Translations under genes and position numbers: made by a program | Shown here: piece after piece, positions 33,566-48,677 of the stretch | Position numbering within the stretch: position 1 is the stretch's first letter | Layout: every line of letters starts with the position of its first letter | The notes under the pieces: generated by a model | The model's database searches: none | What the model was told of the DNA's origin: nothing | Seen by the model: only the letters and a program-made list of their open reading frames with translations | From: Nitrospirota bacterium | Lineage (GTDB): Bacteria; Nitrospirota; Thermodesulfovibrionia; Thermodesulfovibrionales; UBA6898 | Direction of reading: 5' to 3' | NCBI GenBank assembly: GCA_016215155.1 | Contig: JACRLQ010000082.1 | Span: 1-48,677 of the forward strand | DNA length: 48,677 bases

Positions 33566-34657
33566 ATGTACGGACGGATTATGACACCTGCATGCATCAT
33601 AGGACTTTGCGGCCACTCAGGGTCAGGCAAGACCACCCTTATAGAAAGGGCCCTGCCTGAATTAAAGAAGCAGGGTCTATATGTTGGAGTACTAAAACAT
33701 ACGCATCATGCCATGCAGGGACTCGACGCCCGGGGCAAGGACACCGCCCGTTTTTTTGATGCAGGAGCGGATTTTGTTATGGGTCATGATGACTCTCAGG
33801 GGTTTGCAAGGTATCATCAGACAGGGGCGGAAGTTGAAAAGGCGATAATTAAATTCCCCTCCGGTCTGGATCTTATTATCGTTGAAGGTCACAAGGCCTC
33901 AGGTATTTCCGGCGTTTGGCTTGAGAAACAGTCGTCTCTCCCCTCCCCCTCGCCCTCGCCCACCGGGGGAGAGGGGTGTAAGATTTCAAGTAAAAAAATC
34001 ATGTATCGTGACGATCCGGATTACGTTGAACTGTTCCTTTCGTATATCCATCGGGAACTGGAGGCCCATCACGCATGGAGGTCTATAATGTCGGGGCTTC
34101 TCATCGGAGGCAAAAGCAGCCGGATGGGAAGTCCGAAGGGGCTGCTTGAGGCAAACGGAAATACTCTCTCCGAGCGGGCCTTTAATACACTTTCATCGGT
34201 GACGCCGCGTGTGCTTCTGCTTGGGGCCGCGGAACTTCCGCTCTGCCTGGGACGCAATGAAAGGCTGCCCGATGTCCTGGAGACAGCCGGTCCTCTTGCC
34301 GGCATGCTGAGCGCCTTCAGGTGGGCGCCCGATTGCGCGTGGCTTATATCGTCTGTAGATATGCCTGTTATGAATGAGAAGGCGTGGCAATGGCTGCTGG
34401 GGCATAGAAGGCCCGGTGTATGGGCAGTAATTCCCCGCAGGGCAGGATCTGAGAAATTGGAAACAACCGGGGCCTGTTACGAGCCGATGCTCTTTGACCA
34501 TGTGGAGTCGCTGCTACTGGGCGGAAAGCCGGCGCTGCAGCGGATCGCAGATCACCCCAAGGTACTCAAACCTGTTATACCAAAAGAGCTAGAGGATTGT
34601 TGGAGGAATATAAATACCCCTGAGGATTGGGACGACGTGAAAGGGTTTTTGAGGTGA
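33566..34657 (+). CDS. MobB-MobA fusion for molybdopterin guanine dinucleotide synthesis
   Basis: A 363-residue fusion. The N-terminal part is MobB, a GTP-binding protein with P-loop GLCGHSGSGKTTLIE, VLKHTHH and LIIVEGHK. The C-terminal part is MobA, which joins GMP to molybdopterin: GLLIGGKSSRMGSPKGLL, LPDVLETAGPLAGML and SVDMPVMN. MGD is the cofactor of formate dehydrogenase, whose operon lies just downstream, so the gene fits. Between the two modules the frame crosses an in-frame CCCTC-type repeat (about residues 124-138, LPSPSPSPTGGEG). An alternative start is the ATG five codons downstream. Starts further upstream would overlap larC on the other strand. Confidence 0.88.
   Translation: MYGRIMTPACIIGLCGHSGSGKTTLIERALPELKKQGLYVGVLKHTHHAMQGLDARGKDTARFFDAGADFVMGHDDSQGFARYHQTGAEVEKAIIKFPSGLDLIIVEGHKASGISGVWLEKQSSLPSPSPSPTGGEGCKISSKKIMYRDDPDYVELFLSYIHRELEAHHAWRSIMSGLLIGGKSSRMGSPKGLLEANGNTLSERAFNTLSSVTPRVLLLGAAELPLCLGRNERLPDVLETAGPLAGMLSAFRWAPDCAWLISSVDMPVMNEKAWQWLLGHRRPGVWAVIPRRAGSEKLETTGACYEPMLFDHVESLLLGGKPALQRIADHPKVLKPVIPKELEDCWRNINTPEDWDDVKGFLR
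33936..33976 (+). repeat. CCCTC-type palindromic repeat inside the MobB part
   Basis: The same palindromic repeat type as at 33496 (C-rich arm, CACCGGGGGAGAGGGG right arm) lies within the coding frame without breaking it. It is translated as a Pro/Ser stretch between conserved MobB blocks. Confidence 0.7.
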
Positions 34658-34701
34658 TGTGTCAGATATTATCGGGGCAGTAAACAATTTCTTCTTAAAT
34701 T

Positions 34702-36504
34702 CTAGTGGCTAAAGGTCCCCTCTTCATAATTCTTCAGCATCTTCCTGTAGAGCTTCTTGTTTTTTACGACAGGCAGGGAAAAATCACCCTTTAAATTCCA
34801 TTTGTCTTTAAGCGGGATAAGATCTTTTGGAGTAGTCCCTGTCTCAGAGTCCCTGAAGCCGGTCACCCTCAACCCTTTCGTGTCAGCCATGATAGCATAG
34901 CTCCCGTCGTCGAGGTCCTTGTATGAGCCGCCTTCGAATTTTACAGCTATCTTCTGTGTTCGCGAGGCATGGCAGTCATCACAGCGGAGTGACTTTCCTG
35001 TCGCGTGCGCGACCCGGTCGAGGTTCATCCAGACCATCGTATCGTGGTCTTTTTCGTCAAGGTTTTTCACTAATCCCGTTACCGCGAAGGAATCGTTCGA
35101 GAAATACCGCCTGTCGATTTCAGCGTCAGGCCTGTTTCTGAACATAAGGCGTTTCGACAGCTTCACTTCTTCAACCTTGACATTTCCGGAGGTATGAGGG
35201 ACAAGATGGACCGGTATCCATATGCCTTTAGGATTCTTGATAAGAAGGGGTCTTGTCGCCCCGGTCTGATAATCCTGAATCCTTGTAAGCGGGTTTTCGC
35301 CCCCCGCAGGTCCAACCGCAGACCAGAAATTAAAGGCATACCCTCCGATGAGTGAGGTATGGCACGAGGCACAGTCAACCTTTTTATGGACCCCGTTTTC
35401 GTGAGAACTGACCACTTTCGCGTGACACTTTCCGCAGGAGACACTGCGCGAAAGATCAGCATGCGCGCCCGTCTTTTTATTCGGTTCGTGGCAGTCAACG
35501 CAACCTATATTCTTTTCCAGGTGGACGTCCGGATTTTTTTTCAGAATGTCCTTTCCGCTTTCAGCCGCCTGTGTGAATTCTCCTCTGATATATCCGTCCC
35601 CACGTCTCCGCTCGAGCGGCCCGGCATGACAGATGAAGGCCCTGCCGCCGCCGTAACACGTAAGCGATGAAGGTTTTTTTACAAAGGTGTGGGCGGTGGA
35701 CTGACCTTCCCCGTCCTTTTTACTTAAATCCAGATGGCAGTCAAGGCAGCCGGCGTGGCACTTATTGCAGGTCCTCTGGTTATTGAATGCCGTCTTGTCG
35801 TTAATCCGCATGGTGGAATGCTCATTATAAAAAGTCATGTTCTCATCAGAAAACCTGTCCTGAGCAGGCACGGAGAGAACCCCTGTCCATAACCCGCAGC
35901 TCTGGGGCCCTGTTTTTGCGGTCCAGGCCCTGTATTGGCTCTGGGTATGTGCGCCTTTTGATCCGCCCATCGGGCTTTGGAGGAAACTTTTAACGATCCC
36001 TGCATGGCATTTCCCGCAGGTCCTCTCCGCAATTTCCGGATTGAAGGCAAGCGTCCCCGGGTTTTTGTCGTGGAGGAGGACGAGGTTATGTTGGGGATGG
36101 TCCCTCCGTCTGCCGTCGATGACAGTTTTAGGAAGAAGCCCTGTAGCACGGTTTTCTCCGGAACTCCGGAGCTGTCTGAATAATTCCCGGTCCGCGGGTT
36201 TTAACGAGTCTCTCGCTATTACGTTGAATTTGGCGTCAGAAAGTTTTACCGAAACTATACCTTTATGGGCTTCTTCTTTTGAGACCGCATCGGGATTCCC
36301 CAGATGACAATCGGCACATGAGGCTGGCATATGAGTCTGTTTTGCGACTTCCTCCGCGGGCATGAAGAACTCGGGATGCCCAAGGCCGGACATTTTTGAT
36401 TTATCTGCATGACAGGCGACGCAGCTGTCCGCGGCATAAGAAAGCTGGGGAAGGACATAAAGACTTGATAAGATTATATGAATAAGCAGATGATGCAATA
36501 CCAT
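34702..36504 (-). CDS. Multihaem cytochrome c (nine CxxCH plus one atypical site)
   Basis: A 600-residue exported cytochrome with a signal peptide (about 1-24, SYA-A). Nine canonical haem sites are seen: CVACH, CADCH, CGKCH, CNKCH, CLDCH, CVDCH, CGKCH, CASCH and CDDCH. A tenth candidate, CYGGGRAFICH, has eight residues between the two Cys. The ribosome site (AAGGAGA) precedes the ATG. The gene diverges from the formate dehydrogenase operon, so it could take electrons from it or from the quinone pool in the periplasm. It is not one of the small tetrahaem families; I do not recognise the exact family. A redox partner is inference. Confidence 0.85.
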   Translation of the reverse strand: MVLHHLLIHIILSSLYVLPQLSYAADSCVACHADKSKMSGLGHPEFFMPAEEVAKQTHMPASCADCHLGNPDAVSKEEAHKGIVSVKLSDAKFNVIARDSLKPADRELFRQLRSSGENRATGLLPKTVIDGRRRDHPQHNLVLLHDKNPGTLAFNPEIAERTCGKCHAGIVKSFLQSPMGGSKGAHTQSQYRAWTAKTGPQSCGLWTGVLSVPAQDRFSDENMTFYNEHSTMRINDKTAFNNQRTCNKCHAGCLDCHLDLSKKDGEGQSTAHTFVKKPSSLTCYGGGRAFICHAGPLERRRGDGYIRGEFTQAAESGKDILKKNPDVHLEKNIGCVDCHEPNKKTGAHADLSRSVSCGKCHAKVVSSHENGVHKKVDCASCHTSLIGGYAFNFWSAVGPAGGENPLTRIQDYQTGATRPLLIKNPKGIWIPVHLVPHTSGNVKVEEVKLSKRLMFRNRPDAEIDRRYFSNDSFAVTGLVKNLDEKDHDTMVWMNLDRVAHATGKSLRCDDCHASRTQKIAVKFEGGSYKDLDDGSYAIMADTKGLRVTGFRDSETGTTPKDLIPLKDKWNLKGDFSLPVVKNKKLYRKMLKNYEEGTFSH

Positions 36505-36611
36505 TACTCTGTTCTCCTTATTAAATCAATTATAGTCCTTTTTGGTCTATTGTTCATCAAAAAATAATAAAAGGCCCGGGCCCAATCCATCTGCCGTGTG
36601 CGCTGCTGCAG

Positions 36612-36679
36612 GGGCGACATTCATGACGCCCGGTTTTCACAAGCAGGTTGTCGTCAGGGCGCAATGAATTGCGTCCCTG
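36612..36679 (+). repeat. Paired palindromic repeats in the divergent gap
   Basis: GGGCG-A-CAT-TC-ATG-A-CGCCC is a near-perfect palindrome, and CAGGGCGCAAT...ATTGCGTCCCTG (25 bases, one bulge) is a second. Both belong to the common GGGGCGATTCATGAATCGCCC-like intergenic repeat. Short frames here, including a 67-residue one on the minus strand, are likely by-products of these repeats. The remaining parts of the 430-base gap show no promoter I could support with confidence. Confidence 0.55.
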
Positions 36680-36934
36680 AAATACGGGACAGCCTGTTGC
36701 CTTAAACATCGCTGCGTTAACATTTCTGTTTTGAAAAGTCATTGACACTTTAGCCTTCATTATGATAAAAAATACGCATCGTATGACTTATGAGCTGATA
36801 AGTTTCTCTAATGAATATTTACCGTCCCCGTGCGGGAATGAGAGCAATACATTTCCTGATTGCCGGGTTGTCCATTTTTATTCCATAAAAACGTTCAAAT
36901 TCGCATAAACTGTCCGATCCTAAGGAGGTTAAGC

Positions 36935-39900
36935 ATGGCATTATCAAGAAGAGATTTTTTAAAGCTGTCCGGCGGAGCTGCGGTAGTCGGGGCGGTGGCT
37001 GCCGACGTTCCCGGGGCCGAGGCCAAGGCCGTTACGAAAGACCCGAGGACGAAGGGCGCGAAGGAGACCACTACCATCTGCCCTTACTGCTCGGTCGGCT
37101 GCGGTATAGTCGTCCACACCAAAGACGGCAAGGTGATCAACACAGAGGGAGACCCGGAACACCCTATCAGCGAGGGAACTCTCTGCTCCAAAGGCGCCTC
37201 TCTCTATCAGGTCGTCAATAATCCGAAACGCCTCACAAAACCGATGTACCGCGCAGCAGGCGCCGCCGAATGGAAAGAGGTCGAGTGGGACTGGGCCCTT
37301 GATGAGATCGCAAAAAAGGTCAAGGACACCCGGGACAGGACCTTCAAGGTGATGTCGAAGTCGAAGGTAAAGGAGAAGCAGCCGGACGGCACTGAAAAAG
37401 AGGTCGAAAAGGAATTTGTGGTCAACCGCACCGACGGCATCGCGCACGTAGGTAGCGCGGCCCTCGATAACGAGGAATGCTATATTCTTCAGAAATGGCT
37501 CCGCTCACTGGGACTTGTATATATAGAACACCAGGCCCGAATATGACACTCCGCAACTGTTGCGGCTCTGGCAGAGTCGTTCGGACGCGGTGCAATGACA
37601 AACCACTGGATAGACCTCAAGAACGCTGATGTAATTTTGGTGATGGGCAGCAACCCCGCCGAGAACCATCCGATCTCGATGAAATGGATGATGAGGGCCC
37701 GAGAAAAGGGCGCCAAACTGATCGTGGTGGACCCGAGGTTCACCCGGACGGCCGCGAAGGCCGATCTTTACGCCCCGCTCCGCTCGGGCACCGACATCGC
37801 CTTCCTGGGCGGCATGATCAAGTATATAATCGACAATAATCTGTATTTCAGGGAATATGTAGCCAACTACACCAATGCCTCCTTCCTCGTGAACCCCGAG
37901 TACAAAGGCCCGGGTGAGCTTGAGGGTGTCTTCTCCGGTTACGACGCCAAGGCCAGAAAGTATGACAAGAAGACCTGGTCTTATCAAATGGAAGAGAGCG
38001 GAGTGCCCAAGAGGGACATGACCCTTAAAGACCCCCGCTGTGTATTTCAGCTCATGAGAAAACATTATTCCAGATACAACCTGGACAAGGTCTCCGACAT
38101 TACCGGCACGCCGAAGGAAAAGCTTGCGGAGGTCTATAAGACCTATGGCTCGACCGGCAAGCCAAACAGGGTCGGCACCGAATGCTATGCGATGGGATGG
38201 ACCCAGCATACGGTCGGCACCCAGAATATAAGGGCGATGTCGATCATTCAGCTCCTGCTTGGCAATATAGGCATGGCGGGCGGCGGCATCAACGCCATGA
38301 GGGGCGAGTCAAACGTGCAGGGGTCGACCGATTTCGGCCTGCTTTTCCATATCCTGCCCGGATATGTGCCTGTGCCCTCGGCAACCCTGGCCGACCTTAA
38401 GGCCTACAATGAAAAATTCACACCAAAGACAAAGGAACCCAGGAGCGTCAACTGGTGGGGGAACAGACCTAAATACATTACCAGCTATCTCAAGGCCATA
38501 TACGGAAACGCAGCGACGGCAGACAACGATTACGGCTATGCCTGGCTTCCGAAGATCGACGAGGGCATGAACGCCTCGTGGCTGATGCTCTTTGACCAGA
38601 TGTATAAGGGCAAGTTCGAGGGCTTCTTCGCCTGGGGCCAGAACCCGGCCTGCTCGGGGTCGAACGCCGGCAAGGTGAGGAAGGGGCTTGCAAAACTTAA
38701 ATGGATGGTCAACGTGAATCTTTTTGACAATGAGACCGGATCGTTCTGGAGAGGGCCGGGCGTCAATCCCAAGGACATTCAGACAGAGGTCTTTATGCTC
38801 CCGTGCTGCTCTTCGGTCGAAAAAGAGGGAAGCATCTCTAATTCAGGCAGATGGGTGCAGTGGCGCACGGCGGCGGTCCCGCCTATTGCGGGGTCGAAGC
38901 CTGACGGCGAGATCATCAACGAACTCCACTACAGGGTGAAGAAGCTCTATCAGACAAAAGGGGGGAAGTTCCCTGCCCCTATAACCAACCTCACCTGGAA
39001 TTACGGCAGGAAGGACAAGGACGGCAAAATTCATGAGATCAGCACCCATCTGATCGCCAAAGAGGTCAACGGCTATTATCTCGACGACATTGTCGATGCA
39101 AAGGTGACCCCTCCGAAACAGCTCGGCAAAAAGGGTGAGCTCTGTACCAATTTCGTGACGCTTCAGGCGGACGGGAAGACCTCCTGCGGTAACTGGATCT
39201 ATAGCGGCAGTTATACCCAAAAGGACGGCAAAGAGATCAATATGATGGCCCGCCGGAAGAAGGCTGATCCGACCGGCCTCGGTATGTTCCCTGAGTGGGC
39301 CTGGGCCTGGCCTGTCAACCGTAGGATCATCTATAACCGCGCCTCGGTCAACCCCGAGGGCAGACCCTGGGACCCAAAGAGGGCTGTAATAAAATGGAAT
39401 CCCGATAAACTGGACCCTGTTACGAACAAGGTAGTTCCGGGGTGGGACGGTGATGTGCCGGACGGACCCGCGCCGCCCATGGCCACTGAAAAAACAGGTA
39501 AGCTTCCGTTTATCATGATGGCGTCCGGAGTGGGCGGACTCTTCGGGCCCGGGCTTGCGGACGGGCCGTTCCCCGAGCATTATGAGGCGCTTGAATGTCC
39601 GCTCCAGGAAAACCTGATGTCAAAGACAAAGATAAATCCCGCGGTGAAGATATTTACAGACAAGGACAGCGGCGCGGCCGAGGACGTCTTCTTCTCCTGC
39701 GATATGAGATATCCCTATGTGGCAACGACCTACCGTGTCTCCGAGCATTGGCAGACGGGAGTTATGACGCGCCATGTGCCATGGCTTGCCGAGGCGGTGC
39801 CGCAGCTGTTTGTGGAGATGAGCATGGAACTCGCAAAAGAAAAGGGCATCAGTAACGGCGACAAGGTGATAGTCAAGTCCGGCCGCGGAGAGGTATTGGC

Positions 39901-40108
39901 AAAGGCCGTAGTAACAAAACGCTTCAAGCCGTTTAAGGTCGGAGGCTCCACGATCCATCAGGTCGGTCTGCCGTATCATTTCGGGTGGCAGTTCCCTGAG
40001 GACGGCAGCGGGGGCGACAGCGCAAACCTGCTCACCCCGACCATCGGCGACGCGAATACGATGATACCTGAGACAAAGGCCTTTATGGTCAATGTCCAGA
40101 AGGCTTAG
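36935..40108 (+). CDS. fdnG: Selenocysteine formate dehydrogenase, catalytic subunit (FdnG-like)
   Basis: The 1057-residue, molybdenum or tungsten bis-MGD enzyme oxidises formate to CO2 in the periplasm. It has a Tat signal (SRRDFLKLSG), a [4Fe-4S] motif CPYCSVGCG (Cys49, 52, 56), and an in-frame UGA at bases 37544-37546 coding selenocysteine 204: HQARI-U-HSATVAALAESFGRGAMTNHW (split here by hyphens) matches the FdnG/FdoG active site exactly. The C-terminal molybdopterin domain ends with MIPETKAFMVNVQKA. Length and order fit E. coli FdnG (1015). The AAGGAGG site fixes the start. A hairpin beginning five bases after the UGA may act as SECIS. SelB and SelC are not in this window. Confidence 0.95.
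37544..37590 (+). promoter_or_regulatory. Candidate bacterial SECIS element
   Basis: Immediately 3' of the UGA, CCGCAA-CTG-TTGCGG can form a six-pair stem; overlapping it, CGGCTCT-GGC-AGAGTCG can form a seven-pair stem whose loop lies about 26 bases after the UGA, close to the position of the E. coli fdhF loop. Which fold is used for SelB recognition cannot be decided by eye. Confidence 0.5.
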
Positions 40109-40117
40109 GAGGGCGAT

Positions 40118-40933
40118 ATGGCTGCTACTAACATGACACCCAAAGGAGCGTTGATAGATCTGACGAAATGCATAGGCTGCCGCGGCTGCCAGATATCCTG
40201 CAAGAGCTGGAACCAGCGCTCCACGAAAAAGACCGTGATGACCGGCAATTTTACCAGTCCGGGGGATATGAATTCCGAGACATACACCCTGGTCAAATTT
40301 GTTGAAACAGAAAAGGACGCCGACGTAAGCTGGGATTTCATCAAAGTCCAGTGCATGCATTGCAAGGACCCGGCCTGTGCCTCGGCCTGCCCGGTGGGGG
40401 CGTTCACGAAGACCGCCGCGGGTCCGGTTACCTATGAGCCGGAAAAATGCATCGGCTGCCGTTACTGCATGATGGCCTGTCCGTTCCAGGTGCCCAAGTA
40501 CGAGTGGGACAAGCTCTATCCCATCGTCCAAAAGTGCACCTTTTGCGCCGAGCGGATTGCCGACGGTATGGAGCCGGCCTGTGTGAAGACCTGTCCTCCG
40601 AACGCGATCATCTTCGGCGACCATGACAAGATCGTGGCCGAGGCGGAGCGGAGAATAAAGGAGCATCCCGGAAAGTACGTCAACCATATCTATGGAAGGC
40701 AAGAGGCGGGCGGCACTGCCTGGATGTATCTGTCGTCGGTCCCCTTTGAGGCGATGGGGTTTAAGACCAACATACCCGCGAAGGCGCTGCCTGATCTTAC
40801 CTGGGCCTCTCTTTCGAAGATACCATATGCGGTCGGCGGGCTTGCCGTCGTCCTGTCCGCCATAGCCTTCATCAGAAACCGCGGCAACGGCGACGGCGGG
40901 CCGTCAGCGTCCGACAAGGAAAAGGAGGGTTAA
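40118..40933 (+). CDS. Formate dehydrogenase iron-sulfur subunit (FdnH-like)
   Basis: A 271-residue ferredoxin-type electron-transfer subunit with four cubane binding motifs: CIGCRGCQISC, CMHCKDPACASACP, CIGCRYCMMACP and CTFCAERI...CVKTCP. A C-terminal single membrane helix (about 230-250, VGGLAVVLSAIAFIRN) anchors it to the membrane, as in FdnH. Electrons pass from the catalytic subunit to the membrane subunit. An AGGAGGG site precedes the ATG, nine bases after the catalytic gene. It lies between the catalytic and membrane subunits, the classical fdn order. Confidence 0.93.
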   Translation: MAATNMTPKGALIDLTKCIGCRGCQISCKSWNQRSTKKTVMTGNFTSPGDMNSETYTLVKFVETEKDADVSWDFIKVQCMHCKDPACASACPVGAFTKTAAGPVTYEPEKCIGCRYCMMACPFQVPKYEWDKLYPIVQKCTFCAERIADGMEPACVKTCPPNAIIFGDHDKIVAEAERRIKEHPGKYVNHIYGRQEAGGTAWMYLSSVPFEAMGFKTNIPAKALPDLTWASLSKIPYAVGGLAVVLSAIAFIRNRGNGDGGPSASDKEKEG

Positions 40934-40936
40934 GCC

Positions 40937-42379
40937 ATGCAGGACAATAGAAATAAGGTATCACTGTTTTCTATCGGATCAGTCATACTTCTGATACTTA
41001 TCGCGGCAGGTATTTACGCGGCGGTCAATCGTTTTTCCACCGGCCTCGGTGCCTCCACAAACCTCAGTGACGAAGTACCCTGGGGGTTGTGGGTTGCCTT
41101 TGACGTATTATGCGGCGTCGCCCTTGCCGCGGGAGGTTTCACGATCACGGCGGCAGTGTATATCTTCAATATGAAGAAGTATAAGCCTATCGCCCGGCCG
41201 GCCATCCTGACGGCGTTTATCGGCTACCTTATGGTCGTTTTGGGCCTCATCGTTGACATAGGACAGCCCATGAGGTTCTGGCATCCGCTGGTGATGTGGC
41301 AGCCCAGATCGGTCATGTTCGAGGTCGTCATGTGCATATCTTTATATACAACGGTGCTGGCCCTTGAATTTGCCCCTGCCTTCCTCGAGAAGCTTGGGCT
41401 AAACGCTCTGGTAAAGATACTCAAATTCTTTACCTTTCCGCTCGTGATAGCCGGAATTATTCTTTCTTTTCTGCATCAGTCGTCCCTTGGGGCATTCTTC
41501 CTGATAATGCCGGCCAAGCTCAACAGCCTCTGGTATTCCCCATATATGCCGCAGTTTTTTTATGTCTCCGCGATTGCGGTGGGCCTCGCGATGGTATCCT
41601 TCGAGGCGATTGTCGGGGCCTGGGCCTTCAAAAGGCCGCAGGAGACCGAACTGCTTAAGGGGCTTGGCAAGGGCACGGCCATAACACTTTTTGTCTACCT
41701 TGTTCTTAAGGTCGCGGACCTTTCGATGAGGGGGGCCCTGCCGTTGGCCTTCGACGGGTCCATGGCGAGCAGGTTTTATATGGCAGAGATCGGCCTTGGC
41801 GTTATATCCCCGATGATACTCCTTGCGATAACGGGTGTGAGGGAGTCCTTATTCGGGGTGCTGGGGTCTTCGGTGCTCGTGATCGGAGGAGTTATCATGA
41901 ACCGCTTCAATACCAACGTAAATAGGGTCAACAAAAAAGCGGCCGCGGATTTATCGTGCGGCCGCTTTTTTCCTTCTTATTATAAGGGCGATGAGGAGGA
42001 CAATGAGGGCACCCGCCATGACCAGCAGCCAAAGCAGGTTGACGGGAAAGGTATAGGCCTCATAAAGCGGCTGTACGTCCGTCGGCTTGTCTTGCTGCCG
42101 TGGCGGGGAAGCAGGCGCAGCGGCTTTTTCCGGGGCGGCCGGGATGTTTTCAGGCAGCGGCGGCCCAGGCGGTTTCAGATCATTTTCCGGTGTAGTCACT
42201 TCAGCGACAGGGGCGGCCTGCCGCCTGGTTTTATTATCAACCCGGAGCGGTCTTCCGTAATCATCATGGTGATGATACTCTCCGATGTACAGGTCCCAGA
42301 CGCTGCAGTCCTTCCGGCACGAATGTCCTCCGCTGCGGTCGGTCTTTCCGGGATGAGCTCCAGCCGGGAGCGAAAATAA
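40937..42379 (+). CDS. NrfD/HybB-type membrane subunit, C-terminally disrupted
   Basis: The quinone-reactive membrane subunit of the formate dehydrogenase operon, of the NrfD/HybB type rather than the haem-b FdnI type. About nine membrane helices are seen to residue 332 (ending GGVIMNRFNTNVN). The family normally continues with a YFPSWxE loop and a tenth helix; here the frame goes through a terminator hairpin (NKKAAADLSCGRFF) and then runs antisense through a convergent gene for about 140 residues of non-conserved sequence. So the true protein is either truncated or tailed with junk. A strong AGGAGGG site precedes the ATG. It probably passes electrons from the iron-sulfur subunit to menaquinone. 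Confidence 0.75.
   Translation: MQDNRNKVSLFSIGSVILLILIAAGIYAAVNRFSTGLGASTNLSDEVPWGLWVAFDVLCGVALAAGGFTITAAVYIFNMKKYKPIARPAILTAFIGYLMVVLGLIVDIGQPMRFWHPLVMWQPRSVMFEVVMCISLYTTVLALEFAPAFLEKLGLNALVKILKFFTFPLVIAGIILSFLHQSSLGAFFLIMPAKLNSLWYSPYMPQFFYVSAIAVGLAMVSFEAIVGAWAFKRPQETELLKGLGKGTAITLFVYLVLKVADLSMRGALPLAFDGSMASRFYMAEIGLGVISPMILLAITGVRESLFGVLGSSVLVIGGVIMNRFNTNVNRVNKKAAADLSCGRFFPSYYKGDEEDNEGTRHDQQPKQVDGKGIGLIKRLYVRRLVLLPWRGSRRSGFFRGGRDVFRQRRPRRFQIIFRCSHFSDRGGLPPGFIINPERSSVIIMVMILSDVQVPDAAVLPARMSSAAVGLSGMSSSRERK
41933..41971 (+). terminator. Bidirectional intrinsic terminator
   Basis: AAAAAA, a perfect eight-pair stem GCGGCCGC, an 11-base loop, and TTTTTT. It works in both directions: it ends the formate dehydrogenase transcript and, using the same stem, the convergent YHYH-like gene, whose stop codon lies in the loop. 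It is inside the open frame of the membrane subunit. Confidence 0.88.
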
Positions 42380-42418
42380 CATACAGAATATCGAAATGTA
42401 TAAAAGAAGTCCCCTCAC
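41951..42418 (-). CDS. Exported YHYH-like protein with C-terminal membrane anchor
   Basis: A 155-residue protein starting at GTG with a signal peptide (LLLYISIFCMLFSLPAGA) and mature start HPGKTDRSGGHSCRKDC...GEYHHHD, which resembles the short HPGKTDxxGCHxC...YHCH-type (YHYH) metal-binding motif, here with two Cys and an HHH. A Pro/Ala-rich linker leads to a C-terminal helix (LLWLLVMAGALIVLLIALII) and a basic end (RRKKAAAR). The stop lies in the loop of the terminator. It is convergent with and overlapped by the open frame of the membrane subunit; its own frame has clear protein features, so I regard it as real. Function unknown. Confidence 0.72.
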   Translation of the reverse strand: MRGLLLYISIFCMLFSLPAGAHPGKTDRSGGHSCRKDCSVWDLYIGEYHHHDDYGRPLRVDNKTRRQAAPVAEVTTPENDLKPPGPPLPENIPAAPEKAAAPASPPRQQDKPTDVQPLYEAYTFPVNLLWLLVMAGALIVLLIALIIRRKKAAAR

Positions 42419-42637
42419 GGAGTGATTTTATACCATCAGGCCCGAAGAGTCAACTGACCGTATCGGTCTGTCAGTGACGGTTGTTGATCATACGAACGGA
42501 CATCTGCTAACATACTCAAAATAAACCCTGATTATGGGAAACATTTCCCTGGACTGTGCAGCTTGCGGTTTAATGCAATACTAAGGTCAATATTTATTGT
42601 AAGATCACATGATCACGATTGAAAGGCGATAAGAGTT

Positions 42638-43351
42638 ATGGAACAGGAAGAAAATGAAATAGTGATAAAGACCCTGGGGCCGGCCTGCAAAGAGTGCAGG
42701 TCCATGCGGGGACATAAAGAAGACTGCCAGGCCGGAAAACGGGAACTCGAAGAATGGAAAAAACTCTTCGGAGGCAAACCCGTCGAGGAATTTCCTGAGG
42801 ATGGCCGGCCGAAAAATGTTTTTACGCCCAAGCCCCCTGCGGACATCAGGGAAGTCGAAGATGACTCCCGAGACCCTTTCCTGAACGAACTGCCGAAGAA
42901 ACTTGAACCCATCCGCATGGTCCTGGTCAACGATGTCCTGAGATTCGCGTATAATTTCGCCACCGACAAGGGAAAGGTAAGGTTGGAGGAGGTATTCAGG
43001 GAAAAAAGGGAGAAGACCAAAGACGTCTCGAAACTTCTGGGTGAAGACCTGTTCCAGATACTAAAAAGCGATATGAAGGGACTTCTGACCGAGGAAGAGA
43101 GGGCGCGTCATTTTGAGGGCATGAAGCTTTTTATCAGCAAGGAGTTCGAGCAGGTGTCCCAAAAAAGCGGCATATCCGAGGACGACTGGCGTCACGTCAT
43201 CATCGATCTGGTGAAGAACATGGAGAAGTTCTGCGGTGATATAGAACGCAATGACGAGGGCGCTCTTAAAATCATGAAGAGTCTTATCGCAAAAATGTTC
43301 CTGGATGATAAAGACCTGGAGAAGATGAAGGAGTATATTGTCTTAAGTTAA
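42638..43351 (+). CDS. Hypothetical soluble helical protein with N-terminal Cys motif
   Basis: A 237-residue, highly charged protein with an N-terminal CKECRSMRGHKEDC (three Cys and a His, possibly metal binding), a Pro-rich linker, and a helical C-terminal part (MVLVNDVLRFAYNF, FQILKSDMKGLLTEEE, WRHVIIDLVKNMEKF). No signal peptide or membrane helix. I do not recognise the family. It stands alone between the YHYH-like gene and the DHS-like gene. The frame is clean and codon use fits the neighbours, so it is likely real. Confidence 0.75.
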   Translation: MEQEENEIVIKTLGPACKECRSMRGHKEDCQAGKRELEEWKKLFGGKPVEEFPEDGRPKNVFTPKPPADIREVEDDSRDPFLNELPKKLEPIRMVLVNDVLRFAYNFATDKGKVRLEEVFREKREKTKDVSKLLGEDLFQILKSDMKGLLTEEERARHFEGMKLFISKEFEQVSQKSGISEDDWRHVIIDLVKNMEKFCGDIERNDEGALKIMKSLIAKMFLDDKDLEKMKEYIVLS

Positions 43352-43468
43352 CCGTCTGCATTCGTCTTAAGCCCCTATCCTGATATTGGTTTTATTTCCC
43401 GTTTTTCATAGAGAATACGCGCGGCCGTTGATCATATTCCGGCAGTTTTGCTAACATAATCCGAATCA

Positions 43469-44413
43469 ATGAAAAAATACAGACCGGTCTCACTGAAATC
43501 AGTCAGGTCCTATCCCCTCTGTTCCAGAAAGAGCAAGGAATCGATCAAGGGCTTTGCTAAGATATATAAAAAAGGCGATACCCTTCCGGCGTTCCTTGAA
43601 AAACTGCCGCAAAGCCTTGCCGCAAAGGACCTCAGGAAGGTAGCGGATGAGATCGTATCGGCCCGAAAAAACGGCAGGCCGGTCGTCCTCGGCATGGGGG
43701 CGCATGCCGTCAAACTGGGGCTTTCTCCCTTGATCATAGATCTGCTTAACCGGGAGATCATAACCGCGGTCGCGACGAACGGGGCGTGCGCCATACATGA
43801 CTATGAAATAGCGCTCGCCGGTCATACTTCAGAAGATGTCGGCCCCGAATTATGCAAAGGCACTTTCGGGATGGCCAGGGAGACAGGCAGAGGCCTGAAC
43901 CAGGCGATCAACAAAGGGGTAAAAAAAGGCCTGGGAATAGGCGGAGCTGTCGGAGAGGCAATTTCGGGCCGGCGCTTCAGGCACAGGGACAAAAGCATTT
44001 TTGCGGCGGCCCATGACATCGGCGTGCCCGTTACTGTCCATATCGCCATAGGAACTGATATCATACATATGCATCCCGAGGCGGACGGCGCGTCCCTGGG
44101 AAAGGGCAGCATGACCGATTTCAGACTTTTTGCCTCTGTTGTTTTCGACCTTGAAGGCGGGGTCTATATCAACCTTGGCTCGGCCGTGATCCTGCCGGAG
44201 GTATTTCTTAAGGCCTTGAATATAGCGCGCAATCTTGGCAACAAGGTGGAGGATTTTACGACGGTGAATATGGATTTTATACAGCATTACAGGCCGGGCC
44301 AAAATGTGCTTAAAAGGCCCACGGCGTCGGCCGGCCGCAACTACGCGCTGACAGGGCACCACGAGATCATGTTTCCCCTCCTCTGCGCCGCCGTGCTTGA
44401 GGGGATTTCATGA
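43469..44413 (+). CDS. Deoxyhypusine-synthase-like protein
   Basis: A 314-residue Rossmann-type protein with VVLGMGAHAVKLGLSPLIID, ITAVATNGACAIHDYEIAL and, near the end, GRNYALTGHHEIMFPLLCAA, comparable to the NAD-binding and closing parts of deoxyhypusine synthase. Bacteria lack the eukaryotic substrate eIF5A; bacterial homologues are known to make homospermidine or are uncharacterised. Here the exact substrate is unknown, and whether the catalytic Lys is the one in NVLKRPT is unsure. The stop overlaps the ATG of a ferredoxin gene, suggesting one functional unit. No good ribosome site precedes the ATG. Confidence 0.65.
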   Translation: MKKYRPVSLKSVRSYPLCSRKSKESIKGFAKIYKKGDTLPAFLEKLPQSLAAKDLRKVADEIVSARKNGRPVVLGMGAHAVKLGLSPLIIDLLNREIITAVATNGACAIHDYEIALAGHTSEDVGPELCKGTFGMARETGRGLNQAINKGVKKGLGIGGAVGEAISGRRFRHRDKSIFAAAHDIGVPVTVHIAIGTDIIHMHPEADGASLGKGSMTDFRLFASVVFDLEGGVYINLGSAVILPEVFLKALNIARNLGNKVEDFTTVNMDFIQHYRPGQNVLKRPTASAGRNYALTGHHEIMFPLLCAAVLEGIS

Positions 44414-44601
44414 ACGTTCAGGTGGACCAGGACATATGCATAGGCTGCGGCAGATGCGAGGAGATATGCCCGTCCGTCTTCCATGTCAGCGAGGTCACGG
44501 GGAAGTCCGAGGTGATCGATGCGGAGGCCTGCGAGTTTGTGGGGTGCTGCGAAGCGGCCGAGGAAAACTGCCCTGTAGACGCCATAAGCCTTGGGGAATA
44601 G
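44410..44601 (+). CDS. Small ferredoxin
   Basis: A 63-residue ferredoxin with CIGCGRCEEICP for one cluster and a later CEFVGCCEAAEENCP. The spacing suggests one [4Fe-4S] cluster closed by the C-terminal CP and possibly a second one with irregular spacing. It overlaps the DHS-like gene by four bases, so the two are co-translated. It may donate or accept electrons for that protein or for an unknown partner. Cytoplasmic. Confidence 0.88.
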   Translation: MNVQVDQDICIGCGRCEEICPSVFHVSEVTGKSEVIDAEACEFVGCCEAAEENCPVDAISLGE

Positions 44602-44654
44602 GGCATAAATAATTTGCTGTTTTTTTTAGCGACGGAAAATAATCAGGAGGGAAG

Positions 44655-45431
44655 ATGTTTCCTGTACTTATAAAAATAGGGCCTTTGACCATTCATACAT
44701 ATGGTTTTCTTATTGCGGCCGGATTTCTAGTGGCGCTGTGGCTTGCGGTCGGCCGCGCAAAAAAGACCGGCGTCCCTGATCAGAAAATAATAGACCTGGC
44801 CTTTTACTGTCTTATCGCCGGGATAGCAGGCTCAAGACTTTTCTTCATATTCACCAACCTTTCATATTTTCAGGACCGTCCCCTTGACGTGTTCAAGATA
44901 TGGGAGGGGGGGCTGGTCTTCTACGGAGGTCTCCTCTTCGCGGTACCCACCGCGTTACTGTTTATAAAAAGGGCCGCGCTGCCTTTATGGCAGACTTTCG
45001 ACCTCTTCGCGCCCTCGATAGCGATCGGGCACGCCATAGGAAGGCTGGGGTGCTTCTGCGCGGGGTGTTGCTACGGCCGTCCGGCCGAAGGCCTGCCGTG
45101 GTCGGTCATATTCAGGTCTCCCGATACGCTTGCCATCAGGGGCATCGCGCTTCATCCCTCCCAGCTGTACGAGTCGGCCGCGGAGTTTCTGAATTTCCTG
45201 ATACTTGTAATGGTAAGGAAACGCCAGTCGTTTAACGGCCAGATATTTTTTCTTTATCTCATAAACTATTCGGTCATAAGGGTCGTTGTGGAGCAGTTCC
45301 GGGGGGATGAAGTCAGAGGGTTCATAGTGCCCGGCATTTCGATATCCACGGGGATAAGCATCCTTATGTTCGCTTTCGGCGCGGTGATGTTTTTCATACT
45401 TAAGAAAAAAGGGGGGAAAGACCCCCTTTAG
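44655..45431 (+). CDS. lgt: Prolipoprotein diacylglyceryl transferase Lgt
   Basis: A 258-residue membrane enzyme that adds diacylglycerol from phosphatidylglycerol to the lipobox Cys of preprolipoproteins. The opening IGPLTIHTYGFLIAAGF, the EGGLVFYGG motif, and the signature GHAIGRLGCFCAGCCYG (Lgt signature around the essential Arg) with LHPSQLYES are all present. About seven membrane helices. The GGAGGG ribosome site precedes the ATG. Several lipoproteins in this window would be its substrates. Its end overlaps a convergent gene by four bases. Confidence 0.95.
   Translation: MFPVLIKIGPLTIHTYGFLIAAGFLVALWLAVGRAKKTGVPDQKIIDLAFYCLIAGIAGSRLFFIFTNLSYFQDRPLDVFKIWEGGLVFYGGLLFAVPTALLFIKRAALPLWQTFDLFAPSIAIGHAIGRLGCFCAGCCYGRPAEGLPWSVIFRSPDTLAIRGIALHPSQLYESAAEFLNFLILVMVRKRQSFNGQIFFLYLINYSVIRVVVEQFRGDEVRGFIVPGISISTGISILMFAFGAVMFFILKKKGGKDPL
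45408..45429 (+). terminator. Possible shared hairpin at the lgt end
   Basis: AAAGGGGG-GAAAGA-CCCCCTTT is an eight-pair stem at the converging 3' ends of lgt and the glycine-zipper gene. A-runs upstream and a short T-run make a weak bidirectional terminator possible. Confidence 0.4.
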
Positions 45432-45850
45432 TATCTTCTTTCGGGTCTGTCGTACCTTTCCTCGCAGATTTCACGTTCCCGGTCCCTGACCAGCCTGCCG
45501 TCTTCCCACACCCTCTCGTGGATCCTCTTGCAGCGGGTCCTCTCGTTATAACCCAAAGGTTCCGCACGGTAGAGACCGCGTCCGTCTTCGGTCCTGTATT
45601 CGACCGGTCTGTCATGCTGCGCGGCCTCCTGCGCGGCCCTGTAGGAGATGTCTGAAATTGTCGCGCCCACTATCGCCCCTATTACACCGCCGATGATGCC
45701 GCCCCTCCAGGGGTTCCTGCTGTCGAGTATGGCCCCGCTTATGCCTCCGACGGCGGCGCCTGCCGCTGTCCCCTGCCGCTGGTGCGGAGCGCAGCCCCAG
45801 CTCAGCCCTAACAGTGAAATTACCAATATAAAAGACGTTATTTTCTTCAT
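45428..45850 (-). CDS. Glycine-zipper lipoprotein
   Basis: A 140-residue protein with a lipoprotein signal (ITSFILVISLLGLSWGC, lipobox near WGC) and a glycine-zipper stretch of about 45 residues (GTAAGAAVGGISGAIL and GGIIGGVIGAIVGATI). The C-terminal part is charged with two Cys (CKRIHERVWEDG, REICEERY). Family members are outer-membrane or periplasmic (YMGG-like/Gly-zipper_2). A GGAGGA ribosome site precedes the ATG. Function unknown. Confidence 0.82.
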   Translation of the reverse strand: MKKITSFILVISLLGLSWGCAPHQRQGTAAGAAVGGISGAILDSRNPWRGGIIGGVIGAIVGATISDISYRAAQEAAQHDRPVEYRTEDGRGLYRAEPLGYNERTRCKRIHERVWEDGRLVRDREREICEERYDRPERRY

Positions 45851-45973
45851 GGGTTCCTCCTGGTATTAAATCCTCTCTGTCTAGTAACATGTAATCACAC
45901 TGCGGACCCAAATGCAAATTAAAATTGCTTAACGCTGTTTCACGCTTGTCCGGGGGAAAAACATTCTTTTTTC

Positions 45974-46002
45974 TTGACATCCGTCATATTTACCGATAAG
46001 CT
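45974..46002 (+). promoter_or_regulatory. Possible promoter before the RHS-like gene
   Basis: TTGACA is perfect, the spacer is 17 bases, and the -10 TAAGCT is weak (3 of 6). About 84 bases before the RHS-like ATG. Confidence 0.35.
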
Positions 46003-46085
46003 CATAACTGCAAGGATCAAATGATAATTTTTGTTGTTGTTGGGATCAGTTCAGGATGGATTTTGGAACAGTAAGAGGGGAGTTC

Positions 46086-48677
46086 ATGAAAAAAACTATT
46101 CTTGTTGCAGCTATTTTATTATTGATATGCACTTTCCCAAATCTTTCATCAGCTTACCGTTGTCAGGTATGGACAGGCCCGATTCTGGCAAGCAGTTACC
46201 CAACTTACTGGTATTTTTTTGAAGACTATTATTCTGTTCCGGGCAATGCGAACTTAGTTTGTATCGATTATAGGGGGTATGCCCCTTGCGGTGTGGGTGT
46301 GCCCGAGTGCAGTGCGGGGTCGTCGTGCCCACCTGTGGAGAACTGTGTATTTTACGGGGATTGCTATTATTGTTGCGGAAGCACGATTGCTTGTTGTGAC
46401 GGTGTCGGCCCCTGTTGTGCGAGCGACGATCCTTGCTGCGGGAGCAATGACCCCTGCTGCAATGGCGCGGGTTCCTCCTGCGAATGTCCTCTGAACCTTC
46501 CTGTTGAGTCTGCGGCAAATGCTGCAAGCGGCAGCCTTTCGCACAGCCAGGACGTTTTCTCTATAAAAGGCACGGGGCTTACGACGAATATGTCCCTGCA
46601 TTATAACAGCATTAGTACACGCACAGGGCCGCTCGGGCCAAGCTGGACTCATAGTTACGACATGGACCTTTCTCAAATTTATACAGATTCAATAGCCTTC
46701 AACGAAGGCACTGGCAAAAGAAGGATCTATAAGCAAGATGGACTCGGTGGCTATGATTCGCAGGCAGGGGATTATTCCATCCTCACTCAGAATCCGGACG
46801 GTACTTACGTTATCACCGAAAAAGACGACCTCGAATACAATTTCGATGCAGGCGGGAAAATAGTATCCATTGTTGACCGCAGGGGTGACGCAATGACTTT
46901 TACTTACACAACCGGCAATCTGACAGGTATAACCGACTCTGTCGGCAGGTTAACAACCCTCGACTATTATCCCGGCACCAGCAAGCTAAAGACGATTACG
47001 GGGCCTGATCCCAATAGACCCAAAACAGTGACGTTTATCTACGAGGCCGGCACCGGCTACCTTTCGACTGTCAGGGATGTCCTCAATCATGAGTGGCATT
47101 ATACCTATCACACAGAGGGCAATGGCGCGGGCAAGCTTTGGACCAAGGCCGACCCTAATGGGAACACAACTACCTATAGTTATCTATCGGACGGCAAGCT
47201 CCAGTCCGTTCTTGACCCTGAGGAACATACAAAGGGCATGTCATACAGTCCATCCGCCAGAACCACGACGGTGACCGAGAAAGACGGGGGTGTCTGGACA
47301 TACATTTACGATAACCGTCTCGGCAAACTGATGCAGAAGAGCGACCCTCGGGGGAACACCACGAGCTATACTTACGACTTCGTGACCAAGAATATGCTTA
47401 CCAAAAGAGACCCCAACAATAACGTTACAACGTATCAAAATTATAATGGCAACGACAAGGTGACCGCCGTGATAGACCAACTCGGAAACACGACGACCTA
47501 TACTTATAATTATTGTCCCTATTTTACGTATAGCGGCGTTTGTGAGACCAATAACGGCTTCGGCCAGATAGCGAGCATGAAAGATCCGGACGGCAACAAA
47601 ACGACATATGGATATGACTCTATCGGCAACCTTAAGACGATCACCGGTCCTACAGGCAGCATCATTACATACGAATATTATCCGGTCGGTACTTATCATG
47701 GCAATCTGAAGTCCATCACAAACGCCGAAGCCGAAAAGACTCAGTTCGATGCCTATGACAGCAACGGCAATCCGACACAGATTACCGATGCGGCAGGGAT
47801 CGTTACAACGTACATCTACGACACAAACGGCAATATGACGGACCAGACGGTGGGAGAGAAGACGACTCATTTCGATTACACCGTCCTCGATCAATTATGG
47901 AAGGTGACAGACCCGCTTGGTAATATAACCGAATATACCTATGACAATAACGGCAATAGAAAGACGGTAAAAGAGCCCAAACTGCCGTCGGAGACTATAG
48001 ATAAAATAACGACTTACGACTACAACTACCTCGGACAGGTCAAGAAGGTAACGGATGCCCTTAATAATGTAACGGAATATGCATATGAGGGAGGGGTCTG
48101 CTCATCCTGCGGAGGTGGAAGCGGCTCGGGCAGACTCACCCAGGTTAAAGACGCCAATCTCCATACCATCGGCTATGAGTATGACCCGCAATACAAGACC
48201 GGCAGGCTCACCAGGATCACTGATCAGCTAGGGCAGATAGAAACATATGACTATGATCCGGCAGGCAATCTCGTCTCAGTAATCGACAGGAAAGGTCAGA
48301 AAACCAAATACACCTATGACAGCCTGAACAGGATAATACGGATTGATTACTATCTTGATAGTGCCGAAAACAATCTCGAAAGCTACACGACCTATGAGTA
48401 TTACACCCCCGCCGACAACCAATCGACCGGGAAAATCAAGACGATAACCGATAGCGTGTCCGGGACGATTACGTACACCTATACCACGACAAGCAATGCC
48501 CCGATGCCTATAGGATTAGTCCGCACTGAGACTACGCCGCAGGGGACAATAACCTATGAGTACGACAAGACAGGCCGGAGGACTAAGATGACTGTTGCAG
48601 GCCAACCTGCGGTCAATTATGGATATTACACCTCTGCCAGGCATAACGACATAACCACGACCATCAACGGGCAGTCG
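46086..48677 (+). CDS. RHS/YD-repeat secreted protein, 5' part (runs off the window)
   Basis: An uninterrupted frame of 864 codons continues past the window end. It starts with a signal peptide (MKKTILVAAILLLICTF, cleavage near SSA-Y) and an AGAGGGGAG ribosome site. Residues about 75-140 are rich in Cys pairs (YYCCGS, ACCDG, PCCAS, PCCGS, PCCNG). Then comes a DUF6531-like RHS start (NMSLHYNSISTR, PSWTHSYDMDL) and many YD repeats (TTYTYDxxGN type, for example ITEYTYDNNGN-like NITEYTYDNNGNRKTV). RHS proteins build a shell around a C-terminal toxin or adhesin; the C-terminus lies outside. A 217-residue frame on the other strand here is a shadow. Confidence 0.85.
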   Translation, partial: MKKTILVAAILLLICTFPNLSSAYRCQVWTGPILASSYPTYWYFFEDYYSVPGNANLVCIDYRGYAPCGVGVPECSAGSSCPPVENCVFYGDCYYCCGSTIACCDGVGPCCASDDPCCGSNDPCCNGAGSSCECPLNLPVESAANAASGSLSHSQDVFSIKGTGLTTNMSLHYNSISTRTGPLGPSWTHSYDMDLSQIYTDSIAFNEGTGKRRIYKQDGLGGYDSQAGDYSILTQNPDGTYVITEKDDLEYNFDAGGKIVSIVDRRGDAMTFTYTTGNLTGITDSVGRLTTLDYYPGTSKLKTITGPDPNRPKTVTFIYEAGTGYLSTVRDVLNHEWHYTYHTEGNGAGKLWTKADPNGNTTTYSYLSDGKLQSVLDPEEHTKGMSYSPSARTTTVTEKDGGVWTYIYDNRLGKLMQKSDPRGNTTSYTYDFVTKNMLTKRDPNNNVTTYQNYNGNDKVTAVIDQLGNTTTYTYNYCPYFTYSGVCETNNGFGQIASMKDPDGNKTTYGYDSIGNLKTITGPTGSIITYEYYPVGTYHGNLKSITNAEAEKTQFDAYDSNGNPTQITDAAGIVTTYIYDTNGNMTDQTVGEKTTHFDYTVLDQLWKVTDPLGNITEYTYDNNGNRKTVKEPKLPSETIDKITTYDYNYLGQVKKVTDALNNVTEYAYEGGVCSSCGGGSGSGRLTQVKDANLHTIGYEYDPQYKTGRLTRITDQLGQIETYDYDPAGNLVSVIDRKGQKTKYTYDSLNRIIRIDYYLDSAENNLESYTTYEYYTPADNQSTGKIKTITDSVSGTITYTYTTTSNAPMPIGLVRTETTPQGTITYEYDKTGRRTKMTVAGQPAVNYGYYTSARHNDITTTINGQS

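Follow-up and report, generated by a model that had tools for sequence, protein, structure and literature searches.

We propose that a genome rearrangement has truncated the membrane subunit of a formate dehydrogenase (FDH) in an uncultured Nitrospirota genome and made its gene a nonstop gene, and that this lesion is recent and impairing. We give this explanation as a whole somewhat better than an even chance, and we consider a real join with truncation, whether the anchor is impaired or functional, to be fairly probable. The window, meaning the whole stretch of 48,677 nucleotides that was analysed, is one entire contig (G000:C73) of a draft of 3.43 Mb rated 100% complete and 1.8% contaminated. 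The features on which the argument depends are as follows.

36860-40108 (+), fdhA, catalytic subunit, putative selenoprotein, two abutting frames taken as a single gene
40118-40933 (+), fdhB, four-cluster iron-sulfur subunit, HmcB/HybA-like (Pfam Fer4_11, 5.7e-23; NCBIfam HmcB, 4.5e-81)
40937-41917 (+), membrane subunit, conserved part, residues 1-327 (PF03916 NrfD, 1.4e-24; 79% identical to G004; AlphaFold model)
41917-41918, junction at which similarity to relatives ends and none begins (DNA and protein alignments; uncertain by 1-2 nt)
41918-42379 (+), read-through extension of 153 codons plus stop (no family similarity, chance-level length, pLDDT 34-50)
41933-41971 (either strand), bidirectional terminator-like hairpin, A6-GCGGCCGC-N11-GCGGCCGC-T6 (folding energy, genome-wide arm search)
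41951-42418 (-), convergent YHYH-type gene, 155 aa, intact, with its stop codon in the hairpin loop (NCBIfam YHYH_alt)
42638-44601 (+), right flank: 237-aa orphan gene, deoxyhypusine-synthase-like gene, ferredoxin

Apparent loss of the C-terminal end of the membrane subunit

The FDH operon starts at 36860 and encodes the catalytic, the iron-sulfur and then the membrane subunit. The fdhA gene contains an in-frame TGA at 37544-37546 in a selenocysteine-like context (HQARI-U-HSAT), which we infer is decoded as selenocysteine, and the compared part of the alpha subunit is 88-94% identical to those of G001 and G004. Where relatives of the locus are named, they are metagenome-assembled genomes of Nitrospirota. 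The score of fdhB against HmcB falls under the equivalog cut-off. The membrane-subunit frame runs from a start at 40937 to a stop at 42377-42379 (480 aa) and passes the curated cut-off of PF03916, the NrfD/PsrC family (87.7 versus 25.8 bits), with a match that spans residues 41-324 and profile positions 3-302 of 313. Its nearest profiles are HmcC (NF045714, 296 of 550 bits) and HybB (NF008133, 253 of 450 bits), yet these whole-protein scores lie under both equivalog cut-offs, and on its profile matches the subunit is related to HmcC/HybB and fileable as neither equivalog.

The first-pass annotation had family similarity ending after GGVIMNRFN. The loss of similarity is real, but it sets in two residues later, since the last residues with similarity in both DNA and protein alignments are GGVIMNRFNTN, ending at residue 327 (nt 41917), while the normal end would be at 378 residues. 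That the last helix has been lost was also claimed, and this is borne out by both relatives and models. At all 84 relative loci (29 and 55 from two sets of searches, with at least three pairs on the same contig and six, L025-L030, being distant paralogues of 36-38% identity) the protein continues for 40 to 306 further residues past the match end, through a last helix to a stop, and the window protein has neither where the relatives have both. The AlphaFold model of the window protein has nine long membrane helices rather than ten and a poorly modelled tail, and that of the G004 orthologue shows one additional confident helix at 344-367. The tails of close relatives share FFAQ..YFPS/T..E..ITxGL..LYRLAV..LPV. 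Relatives with the window's own tail had been named as a finding that would speak against this loss, and there are none among the 84 loci. At the G012 locus, a candidate tail carrier, the open frame of 479-481 aa is an upstream extension.

The frame has no stop ahead of the hairpin and its U-tract, and therefore about 150 residues, mostly antisense to the YHYH-type gene, are added to the membrane subunit. The predicted read-through past a terminator into a convergent gene thus stands, as the frame is open through the hairpin to 42379, inside the YHYH gene. The hairpin has a perfect 14-bp stem; folded on one strand and the other, it has energies of -28.5 and -25 kcal/mol (z -5.2 and -4.1), a stability matched by none of 200 shuffles on either strand. 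The GCGGCCGC arm pair is present at a single place in the genome. Judged from its sequence, it can terminate transcription in both directions. It is missing from the output of a simple terminator scan, which permits only loops of 3-8, and a search of 34000-48677 for Rfam elements gave no match at gathering score. The YHYH gene contributes, through its final codons, one arm of its own terminator. This gene scores 28.5 bits against YHYH_alt, for which the cut-off is 30, and has homologues in 24 other genomes of the 176 in the order, with a best identity of 40%; the same hairpin was absent from the 17 homologue 3' ends searched. When the YHYH gene was recoded synonymously 5000 times, the antisense frame stayed open as far or further in 16.5% of cases, and so long a read-through is accordingly unremarkable and chance-like. 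On this length and the lack of a confident fold, a conserved or coding tail was rejected.

Gene order, assembly and age of the junction

In G004, G003, G012, G027 and L057 the FDH genes are followed by a gene for a DsbA-like selenoprotein and then by a cytochrome-c-peroxidase-like (CcP) gene. In the window's genome the DsbA-CcP pair lies inside another contig, the 36.7-kb C54, where it diverges from rpsT and has holA, lptE and leuS as neighbours; these gene names are presumptive. On contig C85 of G004, rpsT is located ~5 kb from a deoxyhypusine-synthase-like gene (DS), and the same DS gene follows FDH, YHYH and the gene at 42638 in the window. Hence both broken ends have joined each other's partners: the pairings of FDH with DsbA and of rpsT with DS in G004 correspond to those of FDH with DS and of rpsT with DsbA in G000. 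Apparently a reciprocal exchange, such as a single inversion would yield, broke within the membrane-subunit gene and lost ~50 codons. The original proposal of a deletion joining two 3' ends is therefore retained for the loss of the last ~50 codons and set aside for a plain deletion of the intervening DNA, because the DsbA-like selenoprotein and CcP persist on C54 beside rpsT. Pfam identifies the four genes between rpsT and DS in G004 as an amino-acid ABC transporter pair and two multicopper oxidases, and the window lacks counterparts of them. In G001 and G003 the genes to the left of DS are different again, and the rpsT neighbourhood of G004 is unlike both, so that the path, direction and number of steps of the rearrangement are unsettled. 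To the left of FDH, the order copA, 30547, larC, mob and multihaem cytochrome is found whole or in part in G002, G003 and G004 with no FDH alongside.

The DsbA-like protein, both beside FDH in relatives and on C54, has an in-frame TGA (DFQ-U-PHC) at the site of the DsbA-type CPHC motif and is a probable selenoprotein, as in L002:702-1320 (-) and L034:1494-2090 (-). The 237-aa gene at 42638-43351 has no Pfam or NCBIfam match and one weak match (E 7.8e-4, in G004) among seven other genomes. At 43469-44413 is a well-conserved 314-aa protein with weak likeness to deoxyhypusine synthase and ArgZ, present in all eight genomes searched, with a ferredoxin next to it in most. An RHS-repeat protein with a DUF6531 domain (46056-48677) extends to the contig end.

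The rearrangement that we favour would have split the linkage of FDH, DsbA-selenoprotein and cytochrome c peroxidase inside the membrane-subunit gene. Breakage after codon 327 would have cost it ~50 codons, which comprise a periplasm/membrane loop and the tenth helix along with the stop, and would have placed it against the 3' flank of YHYH, 15 nt from the bidirectional terminator of that gene. The main competitor, which we consider unlikely but by no means negligible, is that the assembly is at fault, either by the dropping of ~200 bp (tail and terminator) or by a mis-join at 41917/41918, and that the anchor of the living organism is normal. The sequence is a metagenome-type draft in 101 contigs, the lesion is located exactly at an otherwise intact and normally evolving gene and in none of the other loci compared, and a local assembler loss of ~200 bp would give the same picture. 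Against this, the DsbA-CcP pair is interior to C54 with different neighbours, and therefore FDH cannot precede it as in the relatives. Furthermore, a search of the entire genome for the lost tail gave no match at E < 1 (best E 1.06), and neither a 19-kb stretch of C54 nor the window itself contained a remnant of it. Both flanks of the junction carry single best-orthologue genes of the same genus, and the sequence to the right of the join has a composition inside the range seen to the left. Exact strings common to both junction regions reach at most 9 nt in direct and 11 nt in inverted orientation, a length insufficient to make an assembler swap contigs at a repeat; a repeat-mediated contig swap was thereby rejected.

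Substitution rates are consistent with either a real or an artefactual lesion. In codons 1-327, the counts of lineage-specific amino-acid changes for G000 and G004 are 26 and 23 when one outgroup is used, 14 and 17 for two, and 7 and 8 for four, and divergence by codon position (0.193/0.098/0.526) is mostly at third positions. With no rate excess in G000, relaxed selection on these codons was rejected, and judged by the codons alone the normal rate fits a lesion that is recent, harmless or an artefact. Because the remainder of the gene is intact, the lesion is probably recent.

Consequences for the anchor

If the join is real, most FDH transcripts would terminate in the U-tract before any stop codon is reached, ribosomes would stall near residue 345, and trans-translation would tag the protein; the genome has a tmRNA gene (202 bits). 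A minority would read through, and their product would be 480 residues long with a tail that is basic and unstructured. The anchor would thus probably be made in small amounts or tagged. Translating ribosomes can suppress hairpins inside frames, and nonstop transcripts may therefore be fewer than assumed. We infer that the missing stop is a greater problem than the lost helix.

A sequence search for a solved structure gave none at E <= 0.001, and fold comparison was used instead. The full-length model of the G004 orthologue aligns over residues 2-378 with the ActC structures of alternative complex III (6btm, 6f0k, 6lod and 8k9e; Z 34.5-36.0, rmsd 3.1-3.3, 368-370 residues), and the eight-helix PsrC (2vpw_C) aligns only to model residues 46-337 (Z 17.7). 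The lost helix is therefore outside the PsrC-type core, and the eight-helix core is present in the window protein in so far as this is collinear to residue 327 with the G004 orthologue, whose model was the one used in the fold search. According to two papers, the PsrC core holds the quinone site and, by homology, so does that of QrcD (PMC6303296, PMC13059093). As the lost helix is outside the quinone-site core, the window protein is not obviously dead.

These considerations bear on whether a shortened nine-helix anchor is functional and has been retained, with a dispensable tenth helix and an end that comes about near residue 345 through ribosome rescue, or else by read-through. The position of the lost helix outside the eight-helix core and the ordinary evolution of codons 1-327 are in its favour, as are the nine-helix TtrC known in the NrfD/PsrC family (PMC6303296) and the QrcD variant E413A, altered far along the chain, which is reported to retain 68% activity (PMC13059093). 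We nevertheless regard it as improbable, as the tail is present at every relative locus, the HmcC/HybB/QrcD/ActC branch is described as ten-helix (PMC6303296), the frame length is chance-like, and an end with neither stop nor conserved tail gives no hint of adaptation. Our leading reading remains that membrane attachment or quinone reduction by the window FDH is probably impaired.

If the join is real, the locus represents a clean natural case in which a nonstop gene arises from a breakpoint beside the bidirectional terminator of a convergent gene, and it tests in nature whether the HybB/HmcC/QrcD/ActC branch needs its tenth helix. If it is an assembly slip, the truncated FDH anchor call in G000 needs checking before formate respiration is inferred.

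Comparison with known systems

In its sequence, its operon place after a four-cluster iron-sulfur subunit, nine of the ten helices and the conserved quinone-side residues that it keeps, the window protein is like the HmcC/HybB/QrcD ten-helix branch. It differs in the absence of the tenth helix and stop codon and in having an antisense read-through as its tail. The likeness to ActC is in the fold of the full-length G004 orthologue, but ActC has the last helix that the window protein does not. Truncations at rearrangement breakpoints likewise separate partner genes and lose a 3' end, but here the break beside a bidirectional terminator would yield a nonstop gene and not a plain truncation.

The arfA gene of E. 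coli also has a terminator hairpin within its reading frame before any stop, and its transcripts may end stopless; this terminator inside the ORF is reported to give a nonstop mRNA that tmRNA represses, and the upstream zntR is subject to a polar effect (PMC10107115). If FDH transcripts end at their hairpin without a stop codon as those of arfA do, tmRNA tagging of the anchor is likely, and the counterpart of the lowering of zntR would be that of fdhAB. By extension of this analogy, the anchor gene might now be of the nonstop kind, with its output governed by ribosome coupling and trans-translation, in a cell that lives with a rescue-ended nine-helix anchor, having gained arfA-like control in one step via the terminator of a neighbour, although we think this very improbable. 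In arfA the arrangement is a conserved regulatory device, whereas that in the window is confined to a single genome and has the look of an accident.
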